A stretch of 63,552 nt of DNA from Peptostreptococcaceae bacterium (GTDB taxonomy: Bacteria > Bacillota > Clostridia > Peptostreptococcales > Acidaminobacteraceae), in NCBI GenBank assembly GCA_027064135.1, contig JAMOQG010000011.1:1-63552 (forward strand), in the 5' to 3' direction. The position numbers were made by a program, and so were the translations under genes. The notes under the pieces were generated by a model. It was not told the DNA's origin and ran no database searches. It saw only the letters and a program-made list of their open reading frames with translations. Shown here piece after piece: positions 56,374-58,322 of this stretch. Every line of letters starts with the position of its first letter. Within the stretch, counting starts at the first letter, position 1.

Positions 56374-57540
56374 TTATTTACACACTTTGTTCCTTCCTGT
56401 TTTTTTTGCTTTATAAAGTAAATTATCAGATTTAATTAAAATAGAATCATAATTTTCCATACTTTTATCAACAGTTGAAACCCCCATACTACAAGTTAAT
56501 TTTATTTTATTATTATTTTTATCAAAAATAGTATGTTCAATTTGAATTCTAATATTTTCAGCTTTTTCATAAGCATAATCTAAAGAGCTATAAGGTAATA
56601 TAATAATAAATTCTTCACCGCCAATTCTTCCTAAAATTTCATTTTCCTGAAGAGAATCGACAATTAATCCTGATATTTCAGTTAATACAACATCACCAAT
56701 AGCATGACCATATGTATCATTAATACTTTTGAAATAATCAATATCAAGAGATATTAATGAGAATACCTCATTTTTTCTTTTGAAATTTACAAATATCCTT
56801 TTTAATTGATCAAAAGCATATATTCTTGAATGTGCCCTTGTAAGAGCATCATAATTTATAATATCTATTAATTTATCATTATATTCTCTTAATTGAATAG
56901 TTCTTTCTTCAACAATATTTTCACATTCATAATACGCTTTAGAATATCGTTTTGAAAGAGTTAAAGAATAAATAAGAATAATTGAAAAAGCACCTATTGG
57001 ATTATTTTCTTTAAAAATATTATTTGGAATAATATAAATTAATAATGCAGTAGAAAATAGAATTAAAAAACCAAGTAAAATTATTTTAGCATCAGATTTT
57101 TTCTTAAATGCAGCTCTAAAAAGTTGAATGAAAATGTATATTATTATCATTATATTAACTGACATATTGAACCGTTGCAATAAAATAATTTTGCTAAATA
57201 AAAATGTTTTAGGTATAAAAATAACATATAAAGATAAAATAAACATATACACATAGAGAATTTTAAATATATTTTTACTGATTTTATTTTCGAATTCTTC
57301 ATTATACATATGTTGTGTAAATTTTAAATATAATATCGGAACAATTATAAAAACAAGAAAAATAAATTTTTCTTTAAAAAACCAATCCGTAACTTTGACA
57401 ATAGTTAGCGCTGAAGAACTAAAAGCTATTAATGAAAAGTATAGTGTTGCATAATTTTTTTTATAAAAAATAAATAAAAACATATGATATATTGCAGTTA
57501 TTAAAAAACAACCTAATAGAAAACCTTCTACTGTAATCAT
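56374..57540 (-). CDS. Membrane diguanylate cyclase (GGDEF)
   Basis: A 388-residue protein with six to seven hydrophobic segments in its first ~200 residues (7TMR-DISM-like), a short coiled linker, and a GGDEF domain. The active site is GGEEF (307-311) with Asp266 in SLDIDYF and GHAIGD. It should make c-di-GMP from two GTP. The RxxD inhibitory I-site expected just before GGEEF is not present, so product feedback through that site is unlikely. No EAL or HD-GYP gene is nearby. Confidence 0.9.
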   Translation of the reverse strand: MITVEGFLLGCFLITAIYHMFLFIFYKKNYATLYFSLIAFSSSALTIVKVTDWFFKEKFIFLVFIIVPILYLKFTQHMYNEEFENKISKNIFKILYVYMFILSLYVIFIPKTFLFSKIILLQRFNMSVNIMIIIYIFIQLFRAAFKKKSDAKIILLGFLILFSTALLIYIIPNNIFKENNPIGAFSIILIYSLTLSKRYSKAYYECENIVEERTIQLREYNDKLIDIINYDALTRAHSRIYAFDQLKRIFVNFKRKNEVFSLISLDIDYFKSINDTYGHAIGDVVLTEISGLIVDSLQENEILGRIGGEEFIIILPYSSLDYAYEKAENIRIQIEHTIFDKNNNKIKLTCSMGVSTVDKSMENYDSILIKSDNLLYKAKKTGRNKVCK

Positions 57541-57552
57541 TTTATCCTCCTT

Positions 57553-58287
57553 TTATTTAGGATAATTCAATTGTTTCTTTTTAATATTTAATAGAACTTC
57601 ATTTAAATATTTATCGCTGTAATATTTTGCCATTGAAAGATTTGTGTCGCTGTAATTTCCACATTCAATTGCAGTTGCACCTGGAATATCAGCATTGAAT
57701 TCTAAAATAAAATTAAACAAATCTTTTATTAATTCAACAATATCTTTTGATTCATAATCACCGTTTAAAATTAAATAAAAACCCGTTCTACAACCCATCG
57801 GACCAAAATAAACAACATTTTCTTTGACTTTCGAATTATTTCTTAAATATGTTGCGCCTATATGCTCAATTGCATGTACCGCTGCAGTTCCCATTACTGG
57901 TTCAATATTAGGTCTTGTTATTCTAATATCAAATGTAGTAATAACTACGTCATTAAAAGTATCTTTTCTTGATACATATAACCCCGGTAAAAGTTTTAAA
58001 TGGTTAATTGAAAAACTTTCAATTCGTTCCATATTTTCATTCCTTTCAAAATCTATAATTAATTTCTCTTTCTCGCTTTTTTTTAGTTTCTTAATTTTAC
58101 TTTCTCTTTTCATTGCTTCTGAACTTGTGCTAAATTTCTCACAATAAGCAAGTTTCACTGGTAACCTTGCTTTTGTGTATTTTGCACCTTTCCCACGATT
58201 ATGATTCTTAACTCTTTTTTCAATATTATTAGTCCATCCAGTATATAGCGAACCATCAGAACATCTTAGCATATATGTATAATTCAT
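57553..58287 (-). CDS. luxS: In-frame GIY-YIG domain / LuxS fusion ORF
   Basis: A 244-codon frame with two complete domains. Residues 1-80 are a GIY-YIG (UPF0213) nuclease-like domain: YTYMLRC, SLYTGWTNN, Arg25, and Glu62 in MKRESKIKKL. Residues 86-244 are a full-length LuxS: HAIEH (138-142), catalytic Cys166 in GPMGCRTGF, and zinc Cys209 in IECGNYSDTNL. No stop codon separates them. A good ribosome site (AAAGGA, 8 bases) lies before the LuxS Met86, so a separate 159-residue LuxS may also be made. LuxS cleaves S-ribosylhomocysteine to homocysteine and DPD, precursor of AI-2. The joining of the two domains is unusual. Confidence 0.9.
   Translation of the reverse strand: MNYTYMLRCSDGSLYTGWTNNIEKRVKNHNRGKGAKYTKARLPVKLAYCEKFSTSSEAMKRESKIKKLKKSEKEKLIIDFERNENMERIESFSINHLKLLPGLYVSRKDTFNDVVITTFDIRITRPNIEPVMGTAAVHAIEHIGATYLRNNSKVKENVVYFGPMGCRTGFYLILNGDYESKDIVELIKDLFNFILEFNADIPGATAIECGNYSDTNLSMAKYYSDKYLNEVLLNIKKKQLNYPK
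58030..58046 (-). promoter_or_regulatory. Internal ribosome site and start of luxS
   Basis: AAAGGA with eight-base spacing to an in-frame ATG lies within the fusion ORF at the exact start of the LuxS domain. It would allow independent translation of LuxS. Confidence 0.6.
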
Positions 58288-58322
58288 TTAATCACCTTTC
58301 TATAATAATTATAACATATATT

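Follow-up and report, generated by a model that had tools for sequence, protein, structure and literature searches.

The closest described relatives of the gene reported here are in-frame fusions of Slx1-like GIY-YIG domains with other proteins. In the excerpts of Dunin-Horkawicz et al. 2006 (PMC1564403) used here, such fusions are listed with COG4123 and TrmH methyltransferases, together with an insertion in HsdR, and the authors warn that many GIY-YIG fusions may mean mobility and not function. Excerpts of a review assign YhbQ of E. coli and YazA of B. subtilis to the Slx1 family; they state that the active site is blocked in Slx1 homodimers, and that binding of Slx4 excludes homodimerisation (PMC7017083). 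A C. crescentus survey, likewise in excerpt, gives the DNA-repair role of its COG2827 proteins as unknown (PMC1839093). We infer that the small proteins named UPF0213 are the prokaryotic Slx1-like group of PMC1564403, in whose excerpts the name UPF0213 is absent.

The window (the whole 63,552-nucleotide stretch of DNA analysed here) contains a UPF0213-type GIY-YIG domain joined in frame to LuxS (Table 1). It resembles the fusion of a COG4123 methyltransferase with a Slx1-like GIY-YIG domain found in five Lactobacillales in that GIY-YIG shares a frame with another enzyme. In the Lactobacillales gene, as the excerpts describe it, GIY-YIG is C-terminal and the partner comes from a recurring gene pair (PMC1564403), whereas the window has it at the N-terminus, in a pairing with LuxS that was observed a single time. 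Residues 2-77 of the fusion match two solved UPF0213 proteins, PDB 1zg2 (BH0048) and 1ywl (EF2693), whose chains of 107 and 96 residues are too short to hold a LuxS domain.

Table 1. Features of the GIY-YIG-LuxS locus, with positions in the window, and the other in-frame GIY-YIG fusions, with the genomes that carry them.
Feature	Position or genome	Strand	Basis
Fusion ORF, GIY-YIG (UPF0213) + LuxS	57553..58287	-	244 aa; ORF call and Pfam
GAAAGGTGAT, Shine-Dalgarno-like, upstream of the GIY-YIG ATG (58287)	58291..58300	-	Sequence
GIY-YIG domain, residues 1-77 (UPF0213 / YhbQ-YazA / prokaryotic Slx1-like type)	58057..58287	-	PF01541; PDB 1zg2, 1ywl; invariant columns
Linker, residues 78-85 (8 residues), with the presumed luxS ribosome-binding sequence translated within it	58033..58056	-	Sequence and comparison with other fusions
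AAAGGA, Shine-Dalgarno-like	58041..58046	-	Exactly 8 nt upstream of the LuxS ATG (58032); duplex energy -5.6
LuxS part, residues 86-244, with its own ATG; stop codon 57553-57555	57556..58032	-	PF02664, NF002604, alignment
7TMR-DISM membrane domain + GGDEF (diguanylate cyclase-like) gene	56374..57540	-	Pfam; AAAAGGAGG before the ATG
GIY-YIG + tRNA_edit	G029, G017		Pfam
GIY-YIG + APH	G027		Pfam
GIY-YIG + RidA	G171		Pfam
GIY-YIG + Flavodoxin_2	G209, G364		Pfam
GIY-YIG + DUF6125	G113		Pfam
GIY-YIG + GNAT	G267		Pfam
GIY-YIG + NUDIX	G341, G506		Pfam
GIY-YIG + PALP	G246		Pfam
GIY-YIG + M42 peptidase	G084, G056, G045		Pfam
GIY-YIG + DNA_alkylation	G669		Pfam
GIY-YIG + GltX	G628, G677		Pfam (G628); sequence only (G677)
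GIY-YIG + ArsC	G650		Pfam
GIY-YIG + aminotransferase	G769		Pfam
GIY-YIG + TP_methylase/RsmI	G919, G801, G885		Pfam (G919, G801); sequence only (G885)
GIY-YIG + threonine synthase	G1012		Pfam
GIY-YIG + dCMP deaminase	G981, G1005		Pfam
Acyl-ACP_TE + C-terminal GIY-YIG	G167		Pfam
4HBT + C-terminal GIY-YIG	G325		Pfam
Double-zinc-ribbon protein + C-terminal GIY-YIG	G541, G497, G624		Pfam

Structure of the fusion gene

The ORF runs from an ATG at 58287 to a TAA at 57555-57553, a length of 244 codons with no internal stop. An earlier note on this DNA had described two complete domains in one stop-free ORF, and this is borne out by Pfam matches above the curated cut-offs to GIY-YIG (PF01541, residues 1-74, E 6.8e-20) and LuxS (PF02664, residues 88-236, E 1.7e-58). 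The eight-base spacing that the note gave for an AAAGGA before the LuxS methionine is also exact (58046-58041 against the ATG at 58032). C-terminal DNA-binding NUMOD modules, by which a table in the excerpts of PMC1564403 recognises homing-endonuclease GIY-YIG proteins, are missing from the ORF, in which Pfam finds just GIY-YIG and LuxS at E <= 0.001.

Six GIY-YIG residues (Y5, Y15, G17, R25, H29 and E62) are identical in all 32 fused and all 64 stand-alone rows of an alignment that left out duplicates (L001, L031, L049-L051), repeated identical stand-alone sequences and the distant rows of genome G908 (L166-L168), and in which G461, G534 and G175 were entered as stand-alone. The domain thereby has the conserved Tyr, Tyr, Arg, His and Glu columns that form the core of the UPF0213, or prokaryotic Slx1-like, group. 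Member proteins are small and stand alone (~80-110 aa); the ORF carries LuxS at 244 aa and is therefore a holder of a UPF0213 domain that is atypical as a member protein. At E 0.001 this half is the single match in its own genome. We consider it probable that this half, now tethered to LuxS, has kept the activity of a small structure-selective nuclease.

Genome G908 has four matches to a more distant GIY-YIG relative. The three copies examined (L166, L167 and L168) are near-identical, and each falls within a same-strand LSU rRNA match, as if inserted in 23S rRNA.

The LuxS half matches the NCBIfam equivalog model for S-ribosylhomocysteine lyase (NF002604) over residues 85-244 at 224.6 bits, against a cut-off of 158, and a PDB search returns LuxS structures (e.g. 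4xch, 1inn and 1j98). It is full-length with its motif residues, as the note had stated: the HAIEH motif (HxxEH), the Cys of GPMGC and the Cys of ECG all occur, and they do not vary across an alignment of seven LuxS proteins. The invariant positions include H53, E56, H57, C81 and C124 of the LuxS part, which we take to be the metal and catalytic residues. No other LuxS match occurs in the genome, and a frame at C100 scores over the curated cut-off of the MTA/SAH nucleosidase model TIGR01704 (85.8 bits with frame neighbours). The LuxS half most likely does its usual job, the cleavage of S-ribosylhomocysteine after the MTA/SAH nucleosidase step. It is 63% identical to the LuxS of G070, from another family of the same order. 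In a LuxS tree the LuxS of the window branches from an unresolved node shared with G070, family-10 and viral-catalogue rows and two same-family rows (G033 and G006), outside a well-supported clade of 14 same-family rows and one family-10 row.

The statement that LuxS nearly always stands alone needs some revision. LuxS frames in other genomes of the order have the same full-length catalytic domain (NF002604 type) and, among the matches listed, are no longer than 215 aa, which agrees with it; in the 210-aa frame of G033 the LuxS match begins at residue 53, without GIY-YIG. However, a further fusion exists on the viral-catalogue contig IMGVR_UViG_2588253903_000007 (L169:1-1188), where a HAD hydrolase and LuxS share a frame of 396 codons that is open at the contig end. 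This protein belongs to the same broad LuxS clade as that of the window and likewise has an in-frame N-terminal partner, which there is a haloacid dehalogenase-like hydrolase. By eye, the start of the ORF that follows it resembles MTA/SAH nucleosidase. LuxS matches are also present on viral-catalogue contigs of 673, 412, 345, 154, 124 and 52 kb (L182-L187), which are perhaps candidate huge phages.

The 7TMR-DISM-GGDEF gene starts 12 nt past the LuxS stop codon and has its own AAAAGGAGG, for which reason it and the luxS fusion probably form one operon. Among the window's four other neighbours, looked for near luxS elsewhere, only the GGDEF gene found a match, with three hits at two places (G062, and G010 twice) and 27-31% identity; we take these to be chance. 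A promoter scan was uninformative, with 25 sites against 19.3 +/- 4.2 in shuffled sequences and no terminators.

Occurrence of the GIY-YIG-LuxS fusion

A search with the 244-residue protein for the same architecture in relatives, which the note had proposed, returned the source genome only: among the matches listed, where a fused relative would be expected near the top, both halves lie in one frame in 1/41 genomes of the family and 1/393 of the order (family included). None of the 43 matching plasmid records or 35 matching phage records covers 80% of the query, and the full 244-aa query found no relative in viral contigs and no second fusion in GTDB contigs. Scanning viral contigs with a LuxS alignment returned LuxS at 22 loci, none of them with GIY-YIG beside luxS in flanks of up to 3 kb, and GIY-YIG is near luxS at 0/34 other luxS places in genomes (L002-L030, L057, L058 and L099-L101; flanks of ~1.5 kb or less). 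The Rosetta-stone pattern, a pair adjacent or fused in relatives, is thus absent from the 34 luxS places, the 22 viral-catalogue loci and the other order genomes. As no relative with a separate, adjacent pair was found, the precursor state at luxS is judged from fusions to other partners.

The genus-mate G001 (86% complete) has neither LuxS nor GIY-YIG detected, yet polA and M3 peptidase went undetected there as well, while YbaB and acylphosphatase were matched. Because polA was missed too, this genome says little and is unusable as an outgroup. The fusion was not found in the literature searched, a body of work with most subscription papers and preprints outside its scope.

UPF0213 fusions to other proteins

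Long GIY-YIG frames were first seen among the matches in the order, and their translations carry other proteins. Altogether GIY-YIG is joined in frame to another protein in 32 genomes, including that of the window, and the partners represent 20 Pfam-named families including LuxS (Table 1); counted among the 32 is G392, whose extension has no Pfam match at 0.001. The families are partly related: a PALP domain occurs both in the threonine synthase of G1012 and in G246, and G167 has a further match, to a thioesterase model similar to the one found in G325. In 27 of the 32 fusions GIY-YIG stands at the N-terminus and in five at the C-terminus, and in 27/32 the join is near the same C-terminal edge of the domain (residue 77-80). 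The fusions to RsmI, RidA, GltX, M42 and others (L160-L162, L102, L135-L136, L109, L146-L147 and others) resemble that of the window in the domain, mostly in the edge, and in a linker that often keeps a start site. They differ in the partner, and several are common to species of one genus, unlike the LuxS fusion. Partners linked to translation (tRNA_edit, GltX and RsmI) occur, and we draw no functional conclusion from them because many other partners occur too. The double-zinc-ribbon proteins (L131 in G497, L133 in G624 and L134 in G541) are ~790-970 aa long, with zinc-ribbon matches and a C-terminal GIY-YIG; the one in G624 has a weak match to phage integrase, below the cut-off (E 6e-4).

Six fusions are common to species of one genus (tRNA_edit, flavodoxin, M42, GltX, RsmI and dCMP deaminase). 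For four of these six, dN/dS is 0.06-0.23 in the GIY-YIG part and 0.015-0.23 in the partner, rough values (dS 0.6 to 2.0) that indicate purifying selection on both halves. Such selection in four species groups means that fusion is compatible with retention of both halves. No second fused species was found for the window, and the claim there is accordingly confined to intact conserved residues.

As a measure of fusion frequency we took the listed UPF0213 rows with an open frame of at least 200 aa, in order, class and phylum samples that overlap and that each include the window. Frames of 150-199 aa were uncounted, and those inspected showed no partner by eye. The best 150 rows of the order, where 263/377 genomes match, include 18 long frames, of which 17 were accepted (G392 in, G175 out). 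Class rows come from 134/391 genomes, and 11/136 are long, with nine accepted (G461 and G534 out); the phylum gave 7/82 long rows, all accepted, from 78/229 genomes. The long frames of G461, G534 and G175 had been candidates for fusions, and were excluded from the counts with nothing recognisable in them by eye.

YbaB, a protein of similar size matched in 219/227 order genomes, served as a control and has no frame of at least 200 aa among 150 listed rows (longest 147). The difference, 17/150 against 0/150 among listed rows, has a Fisher p of 9e-6 with relatedness ignored. YbaB is an imperfect control because it presumably sits in a fixed operon. With a second control, acylphosphatase, 24/71 rows are short frames (68-182 aa) and 47/71 are at least 200 aa, most of them 684-1184 aa, which by their size we take to be the known fusion HypF. 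Small domains in long frames are thus not peculiar to UPF0213; acylphosphatase is apparently a small domain fused often, to one partner, and has limited value as a control, and what distinguishes UPF0213 is how many different partners it has. Fusion is unevenly spread, since none of 37 loci in a GTDB contig scan (14 titled Lachnospiraceae) extends more than 31 aa beyond the GIY-YIG domain.

Origin of the fusions

Separate, adjacent genes are present in relatives for two of the partners, RidA and RsmI; for LuxS, no sister carrying the two genes was found. Fused in G171, RidA is a gene of its own in G320 of the same genus, where it is 83% identical and starts 72 nt past the end of the GIY-YIG frame. 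Within the G171 linker, INIQRGTKM aligns with the stretch before and at the RidA start of G320 (INLQEGNHM if read through). RsmI is fused in three genomes of one genus (G919, G801 and G885). Three others of that family (G972, G948 and G996) have it as a separate gene, with the RsmI match starting 16-38 nt beyond the end of the GIY-YIG frame; the pair seems to share a few bases of overlap in G948 and G972. These unfused neighbours suggest that a stop codon was lost between adjacent genes and that the sequence before the partner became the linker. The rarity of the fused state suggests that the direction was fusion and not splitting.

The linkers themselves point the same way. In the 27 fusions whose partner is C-terminal, Shine-Dalgarno energies were taken for the best in-frame start codon of each linker. 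Their mean is -6.49 kcal/mol; number-matched interior start-like codons give -4.34 +/- 0.42, and 0/10000 draws were as low. Taking one fusion per partner (n=18) gives -7.26 against -4.27 kcal/mol, again with 0/10000 draws as low, and an energy of -6 or below is reached in 15/27 linkers and at 52/333 interior codons. The null was matched for codon number and not for base composition, so purine-rich Lys and Glu codons of the GIY-YIG tail could help the signal. Linker limits were set by hand; the set numbered 21 and then 27 after later fusions were added, with the five C-terminal GIY-YIG fusions left out. In G029, G027 and G341 the best-scoring linker codon is unlike the partner's native start. 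In the window the sole linker candidate is the LuxS ATG, whose energy of -5.6 falls short of the -6 line and compares with -0.9 to 0.4 at five interior LuxS codons. Given this value and the general pattern, the linker of the window is best read as a former luxS leader.

Interpretation

We consider it quite probable that the window gene is a lineage-specific in-frame fusion caused by loss of a stop codon, in which a small nuclease gene was joined to whichever gene came next and LuxS was the partner by positional chance. A stand-alone UPF0213 GIY-YIG gene would have lain directly upstream of luxS, and loss of its stop codon in this lineage would have carried translation through the former luxS leader into luxS. 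Because luxS still has its ribosome-binding site and ATG within the ORF, we predict that LuxS is probably made alone (~18 kDa) as well as within the fusion (~28 kDa); both activities would persist, with functional coupling presumably absent. The GIY-YIG domain would then be one that repeatedly fuses to a chance neighbour, with LuxS as one instance. As the same domain is attached to many different proteins, the LuxS pairing is probably opportunistic and not a new signalling device. This reading builds on what the sequences show: the fused ORF, intact conserved residues on both sides, a luxS start still in place, repeated fusions to other proteins and two cases of unfused neighbours. The note had raised recent stop-codon loss as an alternative, which is supported by analogy with other partners. 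It had also suggested a functional tie of AI-2 or methyl-cycle enzymology to a nucleic-acid module, and this is unsupported: the genomes and luxS loci examined gave no second fusion and no other GIY-YIG-luxS adjacency, and the domain has 19 other Pfam-named partners.

Such a tie, by which GIY-YIG would position or regulate LuxS (or LuxS would do so for GIY-YIG) and thereby connect DNA or RNA with methyl-cycle or AI-2 chemistry, would fit the intact conserved residues of both halves and the GGDEF gene that comes next in the likely operon. Other GIY-YIG fusions persist across species under purifying selection, so that a fused GIY-YIG domain can be useful. With no second occurrence among the 393 order genomes or in plasmid and phage records at 80% cover, no conserved adjacency of the two genes, and so many other partner families, we nevertheless regard it as very improbable. 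An error at the junction that joined two adjacent genes in sequencing or assembly is a little easier to entertain, though still improbable: the draft genome is in 158 contigs and the fusion is a singleton, but like fusions occur in many genomes and six are common to species of one genus. The GIY-YIG tail also contains an A8 run, and the reading frame across it is supported by the conserved K73, which lies downstream of the run, so that the frame is right on both sides.

Two further readings make the nuclease itself the mobile party. LuxS is oligomeric, and one could imagine UPF0213 as a serial hitch-hiker that moves between loci and is kept by in-frame welding to useful enzymes, an oligomeric partner acting as a scaffold that controls GIY-YIG pairing and hence activity; we offer this as an unlikely speculation. 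Least probable of all in our estimation is purely selfish hitch-hiking, whereby mobile UPF0213 nuclease genes persist by attachment to useful host genes and LuxS is one vehicle. The diversity of partners and downstream neighbours would suit it, as would the near-identical distant copies within LSU rRNA spans in G908, and the question of evolutionary mobility and molecular parasites is raised in the excerpts of Dunin-Horkawicz et al. 2006 (PMC1564403). Against it, most matching genomes have a single copy listed, and plain rearrangement with stop-codon loss explains the same facts.

Taken alone, the fusion to LuxS is a curiosity of one genome. The more useful pattern, and the part worth following, is the wider fusion habit of UPF0213: within one phylum (presumably Bacillota), a single small nuclease-like domain has joined 20 Pfam-named families, in most cases by the same edge. 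This bears on the question of 2006 whether GIY-YIG fusions reflect function or mobility, and extends the list of fusions given in the excerpts of that paper to many metabolic enzymes (PMC1564403). It also advises caution with guilt-by-association readings of GIY-YIG fusions, and with naming proteins by their first domain alone.

Genes adjacent to other UPF0213 genes

Two neighbours recur beside UPF0213 genes. A small gene with the N-terminal sequence GFK(D/E)K(L/M)SKTLN comes after the GIY-YIG gene of G003 and after the GIY-YIG-tRNA_edit fusion of G029 and G017 (L046, L056, L117 and L118); it is absent as the next gene at the window. An SbcD-like nuclease gene, recognised by eye from its N-terminal sequence, comes after GIY-YIG, whether stand-alone or fused, in five genomes that share a genus (L103, L145, L148, L150 and L155).
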